The notes beneath the pieces are model-generated. The model ran no database searches. It saw only the letters and a list, made by a program, of their open reading frames with translations, and was not told the DNA's origin. Positions 1-31,439 of a DNA stretch of 32,788 nt are shown piece after piece; the stretch's first letter is position 1; the number at the start of each line of letters is the position of its first letter. The DNA comes from Gemmatimonadales bacterium (GTDB lineage: Bacteria > Gemmatimonadota > Gemmatimonadetes > Gemmatimonadales > GWC2-71-9). Made by a program: the position numbers and the translations under genes. Where the stretch lies: contig JAICJD010000022.1 in assembly GCA_025928645.1 (NCBI GenBank), positions 1-32,788 of the forward strand. Direction: 5' to 3'.

Positions 1-803
1 GAGGCCCGTCCGTCGGTAGCGGAAGCGAGCTGCGCGGCGCTGAGGACGGGGCGCGAGGCCGCCGTCGCCACGAACAGCAGATCGCTGGCCCGGAGCAGCT
101 CGGGCAATGCTTCCCAGTCATGCGCCGTGGCACCCCAGGCCTCGGCCAGCACGCGGCCCCGGTCGGCGCTTCGGTTGACCAGCGCGACGCGCGATGCGCC
201 GTGCAGGTGGAGCGCGCGCAGGAGGCCTTCTGCGGCTTCGCCCGCGCCCACCACCGTCACTGGGCGGGGTCCAATGCCGGCACCACACTCCCCAGCGGCC
301 ACTTCCACGGCGGCCGCGCTCACGGACGCCGGATGACGGCCCAGCAGCGTCTCACGCCGCACGCGGCGTCCGCAGGCAAGCGCCGCGGAGAAGAGGGCGT
401 CCATTTCCCGGCTCGTGGCGCCGGCCGCCCGCGCTGCGTCGTAGGCTCGGCGCACCTGGCCCAGGATCTCGGTCTCGCCCAGGACCTGCGAATCGAGCCC
501 GGCCGTGACTTCGAAGAGATGGCGGACTGCGGCTGCGCCGTCGAAGCGGACGAGCTCATCGGCGAGCGCCACGCCCCGCGCGGCGGCCAGCTCACGCAGC
601 CACGGCTCGTGGTCGTGCGATCCCGACCAGTACAGCTCGAGTCGATTGCAGGTGAAGAGCAGCAGCGCCGTCCGGCCCGCCGCCTGCTCGCAGGCGAGCA
701 GCGCCTCGAGCTCGGCTGGGCTCAGGGCCAGAGCCTCGCGGGTGCCGACCGCTGCTGTATGGTGGCTTAGACCAACGACATGGAACTGCGAATCAGTACG
801 CAC
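1..803 (-). CDS. hemA: Glutamyl-tRNA reductase, N-terminal part (C-terminus beyond window)
   Basis: Reduces glutamyl-tRNA(Glu) with NADPH to glutamate-1-semialdehyde, the first committed step of C5 tetrapyrrole synthesis in the cytoplasm. The translation begins with a family-typical N-terminus containing VVGLSHHTA and GTRE. The catalytic cysteine lies in FTCNRLELY at about residue 52, close to Cys50 of the E. coli enzyme. A Rossmann segment with VVGAGEAAEG follows in the NADPH-binding domain. The start is taken as GTG at 801-803 because an in-frame TAG lies two codons upstream and the family N-terminus starts right there. About 267 codons are visible; the dimerisation domain is missing because the window ends. 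The upstream neighbour hsp20 is on the same strand but separated by about 145 bases with a hairpin, so hemA probably has its own promoter. Confidence 0.93.
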   Translation of the reverse strand, partial: MRTDSQFHVVGLSHHTAAVGTREALALSPAELEALLACEQAAGRTALLLFTCNRLELYWSGSHDHEPWLRELAAARGVALADELVRFDGAAAVRHLFEVTAGLDSQVLGETEILGQVRRAYDAARAAGATSREMDALFSAALACGRRVRRETLLGRHPASVSAAAVEVAAGECGAGIGPRPVTVVGAGEAAEGLLRALHLHGASRVALVNRSADRGRVLAEAWGATAHDWEALPELLRASDLLFVATAASRPVLSAAQLASATDGRA

Positions 804-5221: not shown

Positions 5222-6199
5222 TCAGCCTACCAGACGTTGGTAGAGGTCGGGGTCCACGTTCCCACCGCTCACGATGGCGACGGTGGGGCCGGTGGGCCGC
5301 ACCCGCCCGGCGAGCAGGGCGGCCACGGCCACGGCGCCGCTCGGCTCGGGCCTGAGATCGAGCTCGTGGTGCAGGTAGCGCACGGCGGCGGCGATCTCGT
5401 CCTCGGTGACGGTCACTGCCTCGCGCACGACCCGGCGCAGCAGGTCGAACGTGAGCGTGCCGACGGAGCGGGAGAGCAGTCCGTCGGCCAGACTCTCGGT
5501 GCGCTCGAGGGTGCGGGGCGCCCCGGCCGCCAGCGCCGCGGAGAGCTTGGCCGCGCCCGCCGGCTCGACCCCGATGACATCGGTTCCGGGAGCGAGGCCC
5601 GCCATGGCCACCGAGATCCCGGCGAGAAGCCCGCCGCCGCTCACGGGCGCCAGCACGGTCCGCAGGTCGGGGCGCTGCTCGAGGATCTCGAGCCCGATGG
5701 TCCCCTGGCCGGCGATGACGTCGGGGTGGTCGAACGGCGGGATCATCGTGAGCCCTTCCTCCCGCGCGATCGCCTCGGCCCGAACGCCCTGCTCGGCCGA
5801 GCGGGTGGCGCCGGCGAGCACGACCTCGCCGCCGTAGCGGCGGACCCCATCGATCTTGACTTGCGGCGTCGACTCGGGCATCACCACGACGCTGCGGAGC
5901 CCGAACCGCCGCGCCGCCCAGGCGAGCGCCTGGCCGTGGTTCCCGCTCGAGGCTGCGACGACGCCCCGAGCGCCTCCGCGGCCGACCAGCCGGGCGAGCG
6001 CGTGGTAGGCCCCGCGGATCTTGAATGCGCCGATCGGCTGGAGCAGCTCGCACTTGAGCGCGACCGGCACGCCAAGGCGGGCCGACAGCGCCGGCGCCTC
6101 GCGGAGCGGGGTCCGCACGGCGACGCCGTCGAGCACGCGCGCGGCGGCCCGGAGGGTTTCCAGCGTCACGATGGGAGCGGTATCGGCGGCTATTGTCAC
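5222..6199 (-). CDS. PLP-dependent threonine/serine dehydratase (threonine ammonia-lyase or serine racemase-like)
   Basis: Fold-type II PLP enzyme of 325 residues, expected to convert threonine or serine to 2-oxobutyrate or pyruvate plus ammonia. Visible motifs: IGAFKIRGA with the Schiff-base lysine K60, SSGNHGQ (84-90) for the substrate/phosphate loop, and a glycine-rich SGGGLLAG loop near residue 189. There is no C-terminal ACT regulatory domain, so it resembles the short catabolic (TdcB) or serine racemase type rather than feedback-regulated IlvA. The GTG start at 6197-6199 has a weak AAGG upstream; a second GTG lies ten codons downstream. It heads the operon leading into the GGDEF and kinase genes, although no functional link to signalling is evident. 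A palindromic repeat lies immediately upstream. Confidence 0.9.
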   Translation of the reverse strand: MTIAADTAPIVTLETLRAAARVLDGVAVRTPLREAPALSARLGVPVALKCELLQPIGAFKIRGAYHALARLVGRGGARGVVAASSGNHGQALAWAARRFGLRSVVVMPESTPQVKIDGVRRYGGEVVLAGATRSAEQGVRAEAIAREEGLTMIPPFDHPDVIAGQGTIGLEILEQRPDLRTVLAPVSGGGLLAGISVAMAGLAPGTDVIGVEPAGAAKLSAALAAGAPRTLERTESLADGLLSRSVGTLTFDLLRRVVREAVTVTEDEIAAAVRYLHHELDLRPEPSGAVAVAALLAGRVRPTGPTVAIVSGGNVDPDLYQRLVG

Positions 6200-6213: not shown

Positions 6214-6297
6214 GTCATCCTGAGCGTAGGAGTCATCCTGAGCGAAGCGAGGGAGCCATGCACTGGGTCATGCCTCCGTCGCTTCGCTCAGGATGAC
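6214..6297. repeat. Palindromic intergenic repeat (REP-like), copy 1
   Basis: A hairpin-forming repeat with arms at about 6232-6260 and 6268-6297 that share the 19-base GTCATCCTGAGCGAAGCGA end perfectly and then continue with two mismatches. A partial direct copy, GTCATCCTGAGCG, sits at 6214-6226, 18 bases ahead of the full arm. The core resembles that of the repeats near 9033-9061, 16916-16928 and 30053-30139. Confidence 0.85.
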
Positions 6298-6359: not shown

Positions 6360-6390
6360 GCGGGGGGGCTTGCAGAAGCAAGCCCCCCGC
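6360..6390 (-). terminator. Strong hairpin just after gyrA, likely transcription terminator
   Basis: A 13-bp stem (arms 6360-6373 and 6378-6390, one bulged G) closed by a four-base AGAA loop starts about five bases beyond the gyrA stop. The stem is very G+C rich. There is no U-tract on the minus-strand side, so termination may be weak or the structure may protect the mRNA 3' end. Confidence 0.6.
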
Positions 6391-6394
6391 CCGT

Positions 6395-8899
6395 TCACTC
6401 GTCGGCCGCCGCCGTGGGCGTGACCTCGTCGCCGCCGGCGGCGTCCTCCGGTCCGCCCTCGTCTTCCTTCACCACCCGGGCGACGTCCACCACCGAGTCG
6501 CCGGCGTCCAGATTCATGACCTTGACGCCCTGCGTGTTCCGCCCGATGACCCGGATCCCGTCCACCGGCAGCCGGATGATGACGCCGTGCCGGGTGATCA
6601 TCATGAGCTCGTCGTCCGGGATGACCTCCTTGAGCGCCACGATCGAGCCGGTCTTGTCGGTCTTCTTGAGCGTGATGATGCCCTTGCCACCCCGCTTCTG
6701 GACCCGATAGTCGGCCAGCTCGGAGCGCTTGCCGAAGCCCTTCTCGCTGACCACCAGCAGGGTCGCGTCCCGGCGGACGACGACCATGCCGATCACCTCG
6801 TCGGCCTTCTCGAGCTCGATGCCCTTGACGCCGGTGGTGTCCCGCCCCATCTCGCGCACGTCGCCCTGGTGGAAACGGATGCTCATGCCGTCCTTGGTGG
6901 CCAGCACGATGTCGCTGTTCTGGTCGCACACCTGGACGTCGATCAGCTCGTCGCCGTCCTCGATGTTGATGGCGCGGATGCCGTTCGTGCGGACGTTGCC
7001 GTACGCCGACAGGAGCGTCTTCTTCACCGTGCCCTGGCGGGTGGCGAAGACGAGGCACTTGTCGTCGGTGAACTCCCGCACCGGCACCAGCGCCGCGATC
7101 TGCTCGTTCGGCTTGATGGCGATGCAGTTGATCACCGGCTTGCCCCGGGCGGCGCGGCCCGCCTGCGGGATCTCGTGCACCTTGAGCCAGTAGAGCTGCC
7201 CGGTGTTCATGAAGAACAGCAGGTAGTCGTGGGTGCTGGCGATGAACAGGTGCTCGACCCAGTCGTCCGCCTTGAGGTCGGCGCCGTTGAGTCCCCGCCC
7301 TCCGCGGCGCTGCCGCTTGTAGGTGGTGATCGGGATGCGCTTGATGTAGCCCGTGTGGGAGATGGTGATGACCATGTCCTCCTCGGCGATCAGGTCCTCG
7401 ACCGTGAACTCGCCCTGGTCGCTGAGGATCTCCGTCCGGCGGTCGTCGCCGAACTGGTCGACCACCTCGGCCATCTCCTGCTTGAGGATGTTCATCCGCT
7501 TGGGCCGGCTGGCCAGGATGCCTTTGAGCTCCTTGATCGTGGCGCGCACCTCCTTGAGCTCGGCCTCCAGCTTCTCGATCTCGAGGCCGGTGAGCTTGGC
7601 CAGCCGCATGTTGAGGATGGCGTCGGTCTGCTTCTCGCTCAGGCCGAACCGCTTGCGGAGCCGGGCGTCGGCCTGCGCGGTGTCCGCCGAGCCGCGGATG
7701 ATCTTGATGACCTCGTCGATGTGGTCGACCGCGATCTTGAGGCCCTCGAGGATGTGCTCCCGGGCCTCGGCCGCGTTGAGGTCGAACTGGGTGCGGCGGA
7801 CGACGATCTCGTGCCGGTGCTCGACGTAGCGCTCGAGCAGCTCCTTCAGGTTCATCACCCGCGGCGCGCCCTTGTCCAGTGCGAGCATGATGACGCCGAA
7901 GGTGGACTGCATGGCGGTGTGCTTGTAGAGCTGGTTCAGCACCACGTTGGGGATGGCATCGCGCTTGAGCTCGATGACCATCCGCATGCCGTCCTTGTCG
8001 GACTCGTCGTTGACGCCGGTGATCCCCTCGATCTTCTTCTCGGCGGCCAGCTCCGCGATGTTCTTGACCAGGTTCTCCTTGTTGACCTGATAGGGGATCT
8101 CGGTCACCACGATCTGCGACCTGCCCGACGACTCCCGCTCCTCGATGACCGCGCGCGCCCGCATCACCACGCGGCCGCGGCCGGTCTCGTAGGCCTCCTT
8201 GATGCCCTCGCGCCCGTAGATGTACGCGCCGGTGGGGAAGTCCGGGCCCTTGATGGTCTTGCGCAGCTCGGCGATGGTGGCCTCCGGGTTGTCGATCAGG
8301 AGCTCGACGGCCCGGGCCACTTCCTTGAGGTTGTGCGGGGGGATGTTGGTGGCCATGCCGACCGCGATGCCCGAGGACCCGTTCACCAGCAGGTTCGGGA
8401 TCCGGGACGGCAGGACGGTCGGCTCCTGCAGCCGGTCGTCGAAGTTGGACTGGAAGTCCACCGTGTTCTTGTCGATGTCTTCCAGCATCGCCACCGCCAC
8501 CCGGGTGAGGCGGGCCTCGGTGTAGCGATAGGCCGCGGCCGGGTCGCCGTCCACCGAGCCGAAGTTCCCCTGTCCGTCCACCAGCGGGTAGCGCAGCGAG
8601 AAGTCCTGCACCATGCGCACGAGCGCGTCATAGACGGACCCGTCGCCGTGCGGGTGGTACTTGCCCAGCACGTCGCCTACTACGGTCGCCGATTTCTTGT
8701 AGGGGCGGCCGGGAACCAGACCCAGCTCGTTCATCGCGTAGAGAATGCGTCGGTGCACCGGCTTGAGACCGTCCCGCACGTCGGGCAGGGCCCGCGAGAC
8801 GATGACGCTCATCGAGTAGTTGATGAACGACTGCTGCATCTCCTCTTCGATCAGCCGGGGCAGGATGCGTTCGCGCGAGTTGGGTGCGGTCATAACCAT
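6395..8899 (-). CDS. gyrA: DNA gyrase subunit A
   Basis: Breakage-reunion subunit of the A2B2 gyrase that introduces negative supercoils. The 834-residue length is normal. Motifs include the N-terminal [29 protein letters not shown] in the quinolone region (82-91) and the catalytic tyrosine Y126 in YRYTEARLT. The C-terminal domain contains the GyrA box QRRGGRG near residue 530, which separates gyrase from topoisomerase IV ParC. The tail after about residue 805 is acidic. The position equivalent to E. coli Ser83 is glycine (G87), followed by serine (S88). Start ATG at 8897-8899 or the ATG two codons downstream; neither has a clear ribosome binding site. gyrB is not adjacent. A promoter is proposed at 8952-8981 and a hairpin follows the stop. 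Confidence 0.97.
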
Positions 8900-9025: not shown

Positions 9026-9070
9026 GGCAAGACTTCATCCCGAGCTCAGCTCGGGATGAAGCAGCTTGCC
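9026..9070. repeat. Palindromic intergenic repeat (REP-like), copy 2
   Basis: A perfect 14-bp inverted repeat CTTCATCCCGAGCT / AGCTCGGGATGAAG (9033-9046 and 9048-9061) around one central base. It is flanked by an outer GGCAAG (9026-9031) / CTTGCC (9065-9070) pair. It lies directly past the stop of the M28 peptidase gene and upstream of gyrA. It shares the CTTCATCCCGAGC end with the large repeat after glgC. Confidence 0.88.
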
Positions 9071-9073
9071 CGC

Positions 9074-10768
9074 TTACTGCTTGCAGGGCGCCTTCGGGTC
9101 CGGCTTCGGCTTGTCCACCACCACCCGGTGGTCCAGATCCGCCACCTTGGTGGCCAGGGTATCCACGTACCGCACCACCCGGGCGTACTTGTCGTAGTCC
9201 AGGTACTCCGCCTCGTCGGTCGGCTGGTGATAGTCGCGGTGGCTGCCCGTACTGAAGAAGACGATCGGGATGCCGTACCGCGCGTAGTTGGCGTGGTCGC
9301 TCCGGCAGTAGTACTGGTCCGGGTGGCCGTTGGCGTCGAACTCGTAGTTGAACTTGAAGCCGAACTTGCCGTCCGCGTTCACCTGCTCCGCCAGGTCTCC
9401 CAGCTCGGTGCTGAGCCGGCGGGAGCCGAGGACCTCGAGGTAGGCCGGCCCGCCCGCCGGAACGTCGCCCGGGCCGCCCCGGGCGATCATGTCGATATTG
9501 ATCTGCGCGACGATCGAGTCCCGCGGCACCGTCGGGTTGTCGGTGAACCACGCGCTGCCCTGGAGTCCGGACTCCTCGCCAGTGTGCCACACAAACAGGG
9601 TCGAGCGGCGGGGCCGCTGTCCCTGGCGCGCCATCGCCTCGGCGATCTCGAGCAGGCCCATCGAGCCGGACCCGTCGTCGTCGGCGCCGTTCACGATCGA
9701 GTCCACTCGGGCGGGGTGCAGCTTGCGCATGCTGTCGACCATCGCCCTGATCCGCGCCGCCTCGGCGGCGGACGGCTCGCGGGGAGTGTCGTTCCCCCCG
9801 CGCGGCCGGATCACGGTGTTGTATGCCCGCAGGCTGTCGTGGTCCACCGGCTTGACGATGCCGATGGCGTCGTCGTGCGCGCCGAGGGCCACGTACTGCC
9901 CCCGAAGGGCGGGATCGGAGCCCGGCAGCACGGCCACGACGTTGGTGGCCGGGAGGTCGGTTCCGCTGAACGCGACCTCGCCGTCGAGCGGCGGGCTCGC
10001 GTCCCCGGGGCGGAGCTGGTCGAGCGGCTTGCCGTAGAGCTTCGTCACGGTGGCTGTCGGAACGAACAGCATTCGGGGCTGCGTCACACCCGGGGGGACG
10101 TCGATCGCCTGCTTGACTTCGACCTTGGGTGAGCGCAGGTAGTCGGCGAACTGCTCCAGGAGCGGGTCGATCTCGGTGACGGCGATGCCGGCGATGAGCC
10201 CGAGCCGGCCCTGAGGGCCCAGGTCGGGCATGCCCAGCGAGGAGCTGCCCGCGGCCGCGGCGCTCCGGAACAGCACCACCTTCCCCTTGAGCGAGTCGCG
10301 CGGGGGAAGCGCGGCGGTGTCCGCGATGCCTCCAACGTAGACCACGGGCGCGCCGGCGATGGGGCGCGCCGGCACCGCGAACGTCGGCTGGTAGGCGAAG
10401 TAGTCCGTGAACGGCGCCAGCGAAGCCGATCCCGCATGGAGGGTGGCCTTGCCGGAATCGAGGGCATAGCTCGTGAGGGGAACCCGCTGGAGAAAGCTGC
10501 CGCCGTCGCCCATCGGCGTGAGGCCCAGGCGGGCCAGCTCCGCCGCAATGTACGCGTTGCCCCGCACGTTCCCTACCGTGCCCGCACGCCGGCCGAGCAT
10601 GGAGTCATCGGCGAAGATGGAGATCCGGGCCTTGAGGTCGGCCGGCGTGATTGCCGGCGTCGTGCCGCCGGACGGGGCGGCCGCCGGCGTGGGAGCGGGG
10701 GGACGAGCGCCGCCGCAGGCGGCGGCGAGGGTTGCCAGCGCGGGGGCGACGAACCGCGTGAGACGCAT
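9074..10768 (-). CDS. M28-family zinc metallopeptidase, lipoprotein
   Basis: Predicted envelope-anchored aminopeptidase-type enzyme of 564 residues. The N-terminus MRLTRFVAPALATLAAACGG is a lipoprotein signal with lipobox LAAAC. A PA-like insert (VYVGGIADTAALP and GKVVLF) precedes the peptidase core. Likely zinc ligands and catalytic residues are in GAHDD (near 297), ADDDGSGS (near 360), the EE of GEESGLQGS (near 398), INIDMIARGG (near 423) and HRDYHQPTDE (near 512), the usual M28 order. I prefer the ATG at 10766-10768 because it starts the lipoprotein signal; an in-frame GTG eleven codons earlier (10801) would place charged residues ahead of it. Substrate cannot be inferred. The 77-residue gene upstream is on the same strand. 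Confidence 0.93.
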   Translation of the reverse strand: MRLTRFVAPALATLAAACGGARPPAPTPAAAPSGGTTPAITPADLKARISIFADDSMLGRRAGTVGNVRGNAYIAAELARLGLTPMGDGGSFLQRVPLTSYALDSGKATLHAGSASLAPFTDYFAYQPTFAVPARPIAGAPVVYVGGIADTAALPPRDSLKGKVVLFRSAAAAGSSSLGMPDLGPQGRLGLIAGIAVTEIDPLLEQFADYLRSPKVEVKQAIDVPPGVTQPRMLFVPTATVTKLYGKPLDQLRPGDASPPLDGEVAFSGTDLPATNVVAVLPGSDPALRGQYVALGAHDDAIGIVKPVDHDSLRAYNTVIRPRGGNDTPREPSAAEAARIRAMVDSMRKLHPARVDSIVNGADDDGSGSMGLLEIAEAMARQGQRPRRSTLFVWHTGEESGLQGSAWFTDNPTVPRDSIVAQINIDMIARGGPGDVPAGGPAYLEVLGSRRLSTELGDLAEQVNADGKFGFKFNYEFDANGHPDQYYCRSDHANYARYGIPIVFFSTGSHRDYHQPTDEAEYLDYDKYARVVRYVDTLATKVADLDHRVVVDKPKPDPKAPCKQ

Positions 10769-16912: not shown

Positions 16913-16915
16913 CCC

Positions 16916-16928
16916 GCTCGGGATGAAG
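16916..16928. repeat. Solitary half-site of the palindromic repeat
   Basis: GCTCGGGATGAAG matches the outer end of the repeat arms at 9050-9061 and 30127-30139. It sits between two convergent genes. No opposing arm is seen nearby, so it is a degenerate or half copy. Confidence 0.6.
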
Positions 16929-16963
16929 CCGCCCTGCCTGCTCCTCCGACCGCCGCCCGCCGC

Positions 16964-27971: not shown

Positions 27972-28688
27972 GTGACCGATGTGGAACGCTTCTTCCGGCG
28001 GCTCGTCGCCAACCTCGCCGCGAGCGATCCGGCGCGCCTCCACCACCCCATCCCGCTCGACGACATCCAGCAGTCGATCATCCCGTACCGGGCCAACCGC
28101 CGCGCTCTCGACGTCGAGACCAGCGAGGACTACGAGATGGTGCTGCTCCGGCTCTGCGCCGGCGAGGGGGACCTCGTCCGCACCGAGCCCGAAGAGGTGC
28201 GCACCGAGTTCGCGGCTGAGGTCGAGAGCGCGAATCCCGATCTCGATGTGCTGCGCCGGTTCGAGGGCGTGGTGGTGTCGCTGCGCTCGGAGCCGCTGGC
28301 CCGGGCCCTCGACCCGGTGGCGGACCGTGTGCCGGCCACCGCCCCGCGTACGGATGATGGTGCCTCCGGCGATTCCGAGATCGGCGGTGATGAGCTCGAC
28401 GACGCCGAGGACCCCGGCTCGGAGGACTCCTCCGAAGACGCGTCGGGCGATCCGCTCGAGGCGCTCGAGGTGCTCGACGACGAGCCGCTGCCGGACGAGG
28501 AGGCGGACGAGGCCGACGAGCCGCGCTGCCTCTACTGCGGCGACGCCCTGCCCACCGACCGCCCGGTCCGCTTCTGCCCCCACTGCGGTCAGCGCCAGAC
28601 GCCGCCCGAATGCCCGCGGTGCCACGGCGAGGTGGACCCCGGCTGGCGGCACTGCGTGAACTGCGGCGCGGCGCTCGCGGCAGGGTAG
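27972..28688 (+). CDS. Acidic protein with C-terminal double zinc ribbon, unknown function
   Basis: A 238-residue cytoplasmic protein. Residues 1-100 form a mostly helical unknown domain (ERFFRRLVANLAASDPARLHHP, then SEDYEMVLLRLC). Residues about 118-182 are a very acidic, probably disordered linker. The C-terminus holds eight cysteines in four C-x2-C pairs (CLYC near 186, CPHC near 202, CPRC near 213, CVNC near 228), a double zinc ribbon. The start is GTG at 27972, downstream of a clear promoter. Zinc ribbons of this sort often mediate protein or nucleic acid binding; no enzymatic domain is seen. It is followed by glgC after 95 bases. Confidence 0.8.
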   Translation: MTDVERFFRRLVANLAASDPARLHHPIPLDDIQQSIIPYRANRRALDVETSEDYEMVLLRLCAGEGDLVRTEPEEVRTEFAAEVESANPDLDVLRRFEGVVVSLRSEPLARALDPVADRVPATAPRTDDGASGDSEIGGDELDDAEDPGSEDSSEDASGDPLEALEVLDDEPLPDEEADEADEPRCLYCGDALPTDRPVRFCPHCGQRQTPPECPRCHGEVDPGWRHCVNCGAALAAG

Positions 28689-28783
28689 GCCGTGGTCGCG
28701 CCGAGGGGGTGCCGGCCGGCTCGGCATTCGGCCTCAACCCCCGGCCGCCGCCTGCCGATACTCCGCTTCGGGGAGGTGCACCC

Positions 28784-30040
28784 ATGGTCTGGACCGGCAG
28801 CCTCAGACCGCATGACGTCCTCGCGGTCATCATGGGCGGCGGCGCCGGCACGCGCCTCTTCCCGCTGACCAAGGATCGCGCGAAGCCCGCGGTGCCGCTC
28901 GCCGGGAAGTATCGCCTGGTGGACATCCCGATCAGCAACTGCATCAACTCCGACCTGCGCCGGATCTTCCTCCTCACCCAGTTCAACAGCGGCTCGCTCC
29001 ACCGCCACATCCAGGAGAGCTTCCGGTTCGACACCTTCTCGCCGGGGTTCGTCGAGATCCTCGCGGCCGAGCAGCGGATCGACCGCACCGACTGGTACCA
29101 GGGCACGGCGGACGCCGTCCGCCAGAACCTGCTCCACATCAATTCCTATCAGCACCGCCTGGTCCTGATCCTCTCGGGCGACCAGCTCTACCAGATGAAC
29201 TACCACGCCATCCTCGAGCAGCATGCGACGAGCCGCGCCGAGGTGACGGTGGCCACGACGCCGGTGCGGGCCGACCAGGCGCACGCCTTCGGGATCATGG
29301 AGGTGGGCGAGGGCGGCCGGATCACTCACTTCGTCGAGAAGCCGACCGACCCGGCGGTGCAGGCCCGGCTGCCTGGCTATCCGAACGAGCTGCCCGCGTC
29401 GATGGGCATCTACGTGTTCGACCGCGCCGTGCTGGCCGACGCGCTGGCCGGCGACGAGGTGGACTTCGGCAAGCACGTCATCCCCCGGCTCATCGAGAGC
29501 CGGCGGGTGCACGCCTACCGCTTCGACGGGTACTGGGAGGACATCGGGACCATTCGCGCGTTCTTCGAGGCCAATCTCGACCTGTGCGAGCCGCTCCCGC
29601 AGTTCAACTTCTACGACGCGAGCGCGCCGATCTACACCCACGCGCGGTATCTGCCGGCCACCAAGATCATCAAGAGCCATATCGAGCGGTCGATCCTGGC
29701 CGACGGCTGCGTCATCAACGATGCCCGGATCGAGCGGTCGGTGGTGGGCGTGCGGAGCCGGATTCAGGCGGGGACCACGGTCCGCGAGTCGCTGGTGATG
29801 GGGGCCGACTTCTACGACAGTCCCGACCGGTTGCCGGTGCCGGGCGCACCCATCATCGGCATCGGGCACGGGTCCTACATCGAGCGCACCATCGTGGACA
29901 AGAACGCCCGCATCGGCGATGGGGTCCGGATCTCACCCGAGGGGAAGCCGGCCTTCCTCGACGGCGCCAATTTCTATATCCGCGACGGGATCGTGATCAT
30001 CCCCAAGAACTCGGTGATCATGAGCGGCGCCGTGATCTGA
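28784..30040 (+). CDS. glgC: Glucose-1-phosphate adenylyltransferase (ADP-glucose pyrophosphorylase)
   Basis: Makes ADP-glucose from glucose-1-phosphate and ATP, the committed step of bacterial glycogen synthesis in the cytoplasm. The 418-residue length is typical. The N-terminal nucleotidyltransferase domain has GGGAGTRLFPLTKDRAKPAV, YRLVDIPISNCINS, WYQGTADAVRQN and LILSGDQLYQM. FVEKPTDPA and YWEDIGTIRAFFEANLDL follow. The C-terminal left-handed beta-helix is seen in IIKSHIERSILADGCVIN and further hexapeptide repeats, and the protein ends GIVIIPKNSVIMSGAVI. GGGGAGG lies about seven bases before the ATG. A large inverted repeat follows the stop. Confidence 0.96.
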   Translation: MVWTGSLRPHDVLAVIMGGGAGTRLFPLTKDRAKPAVPLAGKYRLVDIPISNCINSDLRRIFLLTQFNSGSLHRHIQESFRFDTFSPGFVEILAAEQRIDRTDWYQGTADAVRQNLLHINSYQHRLVLILSGDQLYQMNYHAILEQHATSRAEVTVATTPVRADQAHAFGIMEVGEGGRITHFVEKPTDPAVQARLPGYPNELPASMGIYVFDRAVLADALAGDEVDFGKHVIPRLIESRRVHAYRFDGYWEDIGTIRAFFEANLDLCEPLPQFNFYDASAPIYTHARYLPATKIIKSHIERSILADGCVINDARIERSVVGVRSRIQAGTTVRESLVMGADFYDSPDRLPVPGAPIIGIGHGSYIERTIVDKNARIGDGVRISPEGKPAFLDGANFYIRDGIVIIPKNSVIMSGAVI

Positions 30041-30052
30041 GCGCGTCGCAGT

Positions 30053-30139
30053 CTTCATCCCGAGCGCTAGCGAGGGACCTTGCCAGGCCGAGTTCGAACC
30101 ATTCCCGGGCAAGGTCCCTCGCTAGCGCTCGGGATGAAG
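30053..30139. repeat. Palindromic intergenic repeat, copy 3: perfect 32-bp inverted repeat
   Basis: Arms at 30053-30084 and 30108-30139 are exact reverse complements over 32 bases with a 23-base loop. The outer end is CTTCATCCCGAGCGCTAGCG, continuing into AGGGACCTTGCC. It lies 12 bases past the glgC stop and could fold into a very stable hairpin. No coding sequence is interrupted. Confidence 0.93.
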
Positions 30140-30236
30140 GTGGGATGCGCTTGCTTGAAGCGCCCCCCCGGCGCGGGCATATTTCGCCCAGCATGACCCG
30201 CGTCCAAAGCCGCAGTACCTCCCCGAGTCCCCCCTC

Positions 30237-31439
30237 ATGACCGCCCAGCGGGACGTCGTGTTCCTGTCCGCGGTGCGCACCGGCTTCGGCGCCTTCGGCG
30301 GCGCGCTCAAGGACATGTCCGCCACCGACTTGGGCGTCGCGGCCGCGCGGCCGGCGCTCGACCGGGCGGGCGTGGAGCCCACCGCGATCGGCCACGTCAT
30401 ATTCGGCAACGTTCTCCAGACCTCGGCCGACGCGCCCTACCTCGCCCGCCACGTGGGCCTCCGGGCCGGGCTTCCAATCGAGGTCCCGGCCGTGACGGTC
30501 AACCGGCTGTGCGGGTCGGGGTTCGAAGCGGTCATCCAGGGCGCGCACCGTCTGCTGCTCGACGAGACGGACGCAGTGCTGGCCGGCGGCACCGAGTCCA
30601 TGAGCCAGGCACCCCACGTCCTTCGGGGCGCACGCTGGGGACTTCGGCTCGGCCCCGCGGCGCCGCTCGAGGACACGCTGTGGGAGGCGCTGCGCGACGG
30701 CTACTGCGATCTCGCGATGGCGGAGACCGCGGAGCGTCTCGCCGAGCGCTATCACATCGGCCGCGAGGCGGTGGACTGCTATGCCGCCCGGAGCCAGGCC
30801 TGCGCCAGGGCCGGCTGGGAGAGCGGGGCGTTCGCGGACGAGGTCGTGCCGGTGGCGGTCAAGGACCGGAAGACGAAGCGCGACGTCGCCTTCGCCGCCG
30901 ACGAGCACATGCGGCCCGACACTACGCCCGAGGGGCTGGCCAGGCTGCCGCCCTATTTCCGGAAGGACGGGGTGGTGACCGCGGGCAATGCCTCGGGCAT
31001 CTGCGACGGGGCGGCGGCGCTGGTCATCGCGAGCGGCGGCTTCGCCCGCGAGCGCGGGCTCCGTCCGATCGGGCGGCTGATGGGCTGGGGCGTCGCCGGC
31101 GTGGAGCCCGCGGCCATGGGCCTCGGGCCCGTGCCCGCCTCGCGCCAGGCGCTCGCCCACGCCGGACTCTCGCTCGAGGACATGGATCTGGTCGAGATCA
31201 ACGAGGCGTTCGCCGCCCAGTACCTGGCGGTCGAGCAGGAGCTCGGGCTCGACCGCGAGCGCACCAACGTGGATGGGGGCGCGGTCGCCCTGGGCCACCC
31301 ACTCGGCGCGAGCGGCGCCCGCATCACGACCCACCTGCTCCACGCGCTCCGCCGGCGCGGCGGCCGCTACGGGCTGGGCGCGGCCTGCATCGGCGGAGGC
31401 CAGGGCGCTGCGGTCGTGGTCGAAGCCTTTCCCGCCTGA
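30237..31439 (+). CDS. Acetyl-CoA C-acyltransferase (thiolase)
   Basis: Condenses or cleaves acyl-CoA with CoA (biosynthetic or degradative thiolase) in the cytoplasm. A 400-residue protein of normal length. The nucleophilic cysteine is C92 in VNRLCGSGF. The C-terminal half has NEAFAAQYL, the active-site histidine in [17 protein letters not shown] (near 354) and the second cysteine in AACIGGGQG (near 383), so the catalytic triad is intact. Ten bases separate the stop from the SPFH gene. Whether it works in beta-oxidation or acetoacetyl-CoA synthesis cannot be settled here. Confidence 0.95.

Follow-up and report, generated by a model that had tools for sequence, protein, structure and literature searches.

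The window analysed here, a 32,788-nucleotide stretch of DNA from a Gemmatimonadales bacterium, carries between glgC and a downstream thiolase gene an 87-nt element (30053-30139) that starts 13 nt past the glgC stop codon and ends 15 nt ahead of a pair of promoter-like boxes (Table 1). Its two arms form a perfect 32-bp inverted repeat around a 23-nt loop, just as a preliminary description of this DNA had claimed, and are still 97% complementary when extended to 35 nt. The RNA of the 30053-30139 strand is predicted to fold at -74.3 kcal/mol, whereas shuffled sequences average -29.4 (z -13.3); as RNA either strand reaches about -75 kcal/mol, and as DNA the plus strand reaches -45, with z near -13. 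The promoter-like boxes score under threshold in a standard consensus scan, and TTGAAG/CATATT boxes with the same 17-nt spacing are common to five element-free congeners, the second box being GATATT in two of them. Rfam returned nothing above threshold for this site, the nearest being a weak g2 match at 30062-30127 (29.8 bits, cut-off 70). The glgC copy was without a match in a plasmid collection, and a literature search with the core sequence retrieved unrelated papers only. In named genomes, relatives of glgC reach at most 61% identity and are too distant to reveal empty sites.

Table 1. Coordinates of the repeat copies and neighbouring genes in the window
Feature	Position	Strand	Basis
PALP-family gene	5225-6199	-	
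Half-site GTCATCCTGAGCGTAGGA, iterated 18 nt ahead of the complete copy	6214-6231	+	
Complete 64-nt-class copy in the gap between gyrA and the PALP-family gene	6232-6297	.	Fold, Pfam; absent in nine congeners
gyrA	6398-8899	-	
Short hairpin CTTCATCCCGAGC-TCA-GCTCGGGATGAAG	9033-9061	.	Fold; full-size copy in the same gap of G001
Half-site between convergent genes, 3 nt past a stop codon	16916-16928	-	
glgC (ADP-glucose pyrophosphorylase)	28610-30040	+	Pfam NTP_transferase and LbH_GLGC
Left arm of the glgC-site element, outer CTTC plus ATCCCGAGCGCTAGCGAGGGACCTTGCC	30053-30084	+	Exact complement of 30108-30139
Spacer (loop) of the short-class type, conserved elsewhere as CGGGCCGAGTTCGAGCCATTCCCGG	30085-30107	.	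Short-class spacer comparison
Right arm of the element downstream of glgC	30108-30139	-	Inverted-repeat match and fold
Promoter-like TTGAAG-17-CATATT before the thiolase gene	30155-30183	+	Conserved boxes in congeners, by direct reading
Thiolase gene 3' of the element	30237-31439	+	Pfam Thiolase_N/C

Three other sites in the window carry related sequences. The core TCATCCYGAGC, with at most one mismatch, occurs 12 times in the window against 2.1 expected, and all eight exact matches lie within the four sites to which the preliminary description had assigned a shared core. That all four are intergenic is confirmed by gene calls trained on the genome itself. The division into three hairpins and one half-site is real, but two outlines had to be redrawn: 6214-6297 consists of a half-site plus a complete copy (the copy proper occupying 6233-6296), and the hairpin placed at 9026-9070 is that of 9033-9061, which is probably an internally collapsed copy. 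A CCTTGCC/GGCAAG pair had also been read as internal to this short hairpin; instead, the GGCAAG/CTTGCC pair sits outside it, and its left half, GGCAAG, looks like host flank, to judge from AAGGCGAGAC at this place in an element-free congener. A separate strong GC hairpin lies at 6361-6392 just 3' of gyrA, and the equivalent place in the congener G001 holds a comparable GC-rich hairpin of different sequence.

Across the 3.89-Mb draft genome (71% G+C) the core is found 235 times, compared with five times for a reversed control. A covariance model built on 12 copies gave at least 150 strand-specific matches at roughly 76-80 places, and at least 76 full inverted doublets are present. The 76 distinct complete copies analysed here, taken from about 0.5 Mb of genome stretches, are for the most part 41 of 78-84 nt (the short class), 28 of 92-101 nt (the long class) and five of 64 nt. 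With 235 core matches and 76 full copies, the genome holds many more than the ten or so below which the preliminary description would have given up its proposal of one dispersed REP-like palindromic family of several lengths, and that proposal is supported, the family lying at gene ends and being polymorphic in copy number and in insertion, as presented below. The 64-nt class, of the form TCATCCTGAGCG...CATGG...CATG, is a minority in the window's genome yet has many copies in the congeners G002, G004 and G009; therefore, different size classes have expanded in different species.

In 14 of the 76 copies a further half-site lies 17-22 nt from one end, most often at 19 nt, where 0.06 would be expected per offset. 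At one locus (L200, G000:C118 near 9026-9144) three tandem half-sites in 19-nt steps lie to the left of a copy and mirrored units lie to its right, so that the whole array is palindromic. At three others (L188, L202 and L247) the inverted symmetry runs 10-25 nt into otherwise unique flank. At least five extra flank pairs were counted in nine copies, against 1.1 after shuffling; misassembly at contig ends may account for part of this figure.

Within a copy, each arm forms a small REP of its own, composed of an outer tetranucleotide, the sequence ATCCC-GA-GC-GNA-GC-GA-GGGA[C/T] and a tail that is mainly CTT, CTG or CTC (CTN; CCA in six). Among the 152 arms the outer tetranucleotide is CTTC in 91, TGTC in 18, TTTC in 12, CCTC in 11, AGTC in nine and CGTC in five. 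The predicted fold of an arm is a 4-5-bp stem, paired GA/GA mismatches, 2 bp and a 3-nt loop, with the first A unpaired in most copies (ATCCC/GGGAC 84, ATCCC/GGGAT 22). In every full copy the tags point outwards, and the spacer of the doublet measures 20-45 nt. The two arms of a copy vary together: the GNA core matches between them in 44 of 61 copies, as against 18.5 after shuffling (maximum 31 in 2000), and the agreement covers the N of the GNA loop as well as rarer length variants such as the GCTA of the window copy. Likewise, the outermost two bases differ among copies but covary between the ends. This covariation could alternatively reflect hairpin selection or quasi-palindrome correction, without mobility. 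The spacers of the short class (n=41) represent copies of a single sequence, present in either orientation, with a mean pairwise identity of 75% (57% shuffled), while those of the long class are much less conserved (63% versus 58%).

This anatomy bears on whether the family could be a MITE moved by a DDE transposase that recognises the arms. Like the bacterial MITEs NEMIS and ERIC, the copies are short, non-coding and likely transcribed as hairpins, with inverted ends of about 30 nt around a non-coding interior, 80-100 bp in all. However, a search for target-site duplications of 2 to 12 bp at the 76 copies revealed no excess, with 2-bp matches below chance; the outermost dinucleotide is not fixed; and the arms hold their own small hairpin. 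We therefore consider a DDE-mobilised MITE an unlikely identity for the family.

The copies occupy a particular position relative to genes. Of the 73 copies that could be scored, 70 are intergenic, compared with 11% of random positions, and the gaps that they occupy are convergent, unidirectional or divergent in 21, 46 and 3 cases, as against 72, 324 and 145 for random intergenic positions (chi-square p 4e-6); the gene calls come from a simple codon-usage program trained on the genome itself, so that single cases may err while the overall bias is large. Within unidirectional gaps the upstream stop codon is the closer in 32 of 46 copies. Thus, the copies lie near stop codons; random positions inside genes, which the preliminary description had named as counting against its proposal, are not what is seen. 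In the broad sense of high-copy, short palindromic, extragenic sequences, they are REPs (235 core matches, 76 copies, 70 of 73 intergenic).

Placement at gene ends raises the question of transcription termination. Only two of 152 flanks are T-rich, the hairpins otherwise being without a trailing T-tract, and no intrinsic terminator was called at 30053 or 6214. Lacking a U-tract, the copies are therefore not canonical intrinsic terminators, and we rejected this identity. Located just past a stop codon, a very strong hairpin should impede 3' exonucleases or be cleaved by RNase III. By analogy with REP and MITE hairpins in general, a role at mRNA 3' ends or as an RNase III site is plausible for the family.

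Comparison within the genus, in which the relatives are designated by G numbers, reveals that the sites are polymorphic. In G001, G002, G004, G006 and G008 glgC, the thiolase gene and the promoter-like boxes can be aligned with those of the window, yet the junction between the two genes is free of the element. At 6214, none of the nine congeners has the copy. In the gap at 9026, G001 carries a copy of full size and G003 a short, degenerate one; in the gap at 16916, a full doublet is present in G002 and a single REP in G007, with nothing in G003, G004, G006 and G008. These empty sites are defined at intergenic rather than base resolution, because the congener DNA is only about 75-80% identical. 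Judged from these alignments, the simplest reading would be that copies are gained and decay in individual lineages and that the same permissive gaps are occupied repeatedly. In G008 the gap orthologous to window 16913-16963 (L281) contains an intergenic hairpin of another kind, a large inverted repeat built from imperfect GGTRAGM-like heptamer runs; a matching run is nearly absent from the sampled stretches of the window's genome.

Abundance varies as widely as occupancy. Core counts within the genus range from 11 to 311 (both strands summed), and full-length model matches from 7 in G003 to 125 in G004, an about 18-fold variation in copy number; over the ten genomes of the genus, full copies number roughly 4 to 77 per genome. 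Beyond the genus, the 22-nt arm pattern was found in 44 of 395 genomes sampled from the phylum, all in the window's own order, where it is confined to certain genera of two families. No genome sampled outside this order, whether in the same class or in another, contained it. Taken together, copies throughout the genome, placement at gene ends, covariation of the arms and the absence from the junction in congeners therefore define a dispersed, lineage-variable miniature element.

It might be argued that such hairpins are immobile structures, serving to terminate transcripts or to stabilise mRNA, that originated repeatedly at the ends of genes and are kept palindromic by selection or by template-switch correction. 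The 3'-end bias and the covariation of the arms would be explained in this way, and the iterated half-sites look like slippage products. However, independent origins would not account for a short-class spacer sequence that is conserved across the genome, for orthologous junctions that are empty in congeners or for an about 18-fold copy-number range within one genus. In addition, the scarcity of T-rich flanks and the lack of a terminator call at the glgC site speak against a terminator function. Immobility thus appears quite unlikely.

Mobilisation by a RAYT (Y1) transposase had been suggested in the preliminary description, but this was not borne out. No match to PF01797 was found in the window's genome, nor in the other congeners richest in copies (G002, G004, G008 and G009), nor in G175, G276, G266 and G238, members of a second family of the order that have 65-122 arm matches and are 97-100% complete. 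The same search detects an E. coli control as well as Y1 genes in 24 of 61 relatives, and missing contigs cannot explain the absence because the product of the incompleteness values is about 5e-6 for the genus alone. Genomes of intermediate copy number are mixed, a Y1 gene being present in G001, G338 and G392, and congeners that have a Y1 gene carry fewer copies. Within the sampled flanks, the element core was not found beside the Y1 genes of the low-copy congeners. A classical REPIN moved by a RAYT that is resident in, or was very recently lost from, each high-copy lineage would fit the doublet architecture, the intergenic placement and the lack of target duplication (PMC3116915), and some congeners do encode Y1 proteins. 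Nevertheless, given that PF01797 is missing from all nine of these high-copy genomes (the window's own, G000, included), that the Y1 loci of congeners are without the core and that the GTAG tag is absent, this reading is strongly disfavoured and in our judgment very improbable.

Two further sources of mobility were considered. In two closely spaced pairs of elements, the enclosed genes are by eye ordinary-looking host genes with no recognised transposase, and an autonomous element between closely spaced copies was rejected since both intervals hold host-like genes. REPs are targeted by IS elements in other bacteria (PMC1525189), and the copies could in principle serve an IS110-type element as a preferred insertion site or target, as REPs and dRS3 do elsewhere. 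However, PF02371 (IS110) is absent from the window's genome, G002 and G008, and such targeting would leave the spread of the repeats themselves unexplained, making it a highly improbable account of the family.

Among known systems, the family has the REP-doublet organisation of REPINs, and its nearest counterparts are the CGTC-type REPs (Di Nocera et al. 2013, PMC3733652). The latter are intergenic head-to-head dimers found in five phyla without a dedicated transposase, include Neisseria dRS3 and Rickettsia RPE-6/RPE-4, and are defined by a CGTC (or TGTC/CCTC) tag, a stem of 8-9 bp with AT first stem bases, a loop of 4-5 nt and a CCA tail. In both groups head-to-head dimers with outward tags predominate (here all full copies are of this kind), AT occupies the base of the stem, intergenic gaps are unidirectional or convergent, the distribution between species is uneven and a dedicated tyrosine transposase is lacking, as PF01797 is in the high-copy genomes here. 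In contrast, the outer tetranucleotide here is mostly CTTC (91 of 152 arms) and CGTC in only five, 34 arms carrying CGTC, TGTC or CCTC; the stem of 5 bp, paired GA mismatches and 2 bp, with its 3-nt loop, does not match; the tail is mostly CTN, with CCA in six; and neighbouring half-sites iterate at 17-22 nt. The family is thus best called a REP-doublet family that resembles the CGTC type, with most copies lacking the defining tag, stem and tail. As in REPINs (Bertels and Rainey 2011, PMC3116915), two inverted REPs and a spacer make up one intergenic hairpin that is apparently the dispersed unit. In contrast to GTAG REPs and REPINs, GTAG was not seen in the 152 arms, and RAYT is absent from the highest-copy genomes tested. 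With the GTAG tag and a RAYT both missing, the element falls outside the strict REPIN definition of PMC3116915.

We propose that the hairpin downstream of glgC belongs to a family of non-autonomous REP-doublet (REPIN-like) miniature elements whose copies were spread as units by an enzyme other than a resident RAYT, which we consider the probable explanation. Two small inverted REPs, their outer ends facing outwards, would enclose a spacer and form the dispersed unit, which probably spreads via a single-stranded hairpin intermediate; the mobilising enzyme is presumably other than a resident Y1/RAYT transposase. Insertions would persist chiefly in the interval from a stop codon to the following promoter, where they would be harmless. 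Once transcribed, the 32-bp RNA hairpin is a putative barrier to 3'-end exonucleases and/or a site for RNase III, and at the glgC site it would separate glgC from a thiolase gene with its own conserved promoter-like boxes. More tentatively, and as a possibility that we hold somewhat short of probable, the REP-doublet family may have spread recently in genomes without any Y1 transposase, recent spread being read from the insertion polymorphism and the about 18-fold variation in copy number in one genus.

Owing to its orthologous empty and filled sites, its wide range of copy numbers and the lack of RAYT in its high-copy members, the genus is a natural comparison, and relating gene content to copy number across it could name the mobilising enzyme. 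For the host, the very strong RNA hairpins that separate the end of one gene from the gene that follows may shape transcript ends genome-wide. How CGTC-type REPs spread was left open by Di Nocera et al. 2013 (PMC3733652), because no transposase accompanies them. If recent spread in Y1-free genomes is true, there would be a second dispersal route for REP doublets, through another single-stranded DNA endonuclease or through host replication or repair copying hairpins, and it would suggest that CGTC-type REPs are not relics heading for extinction.
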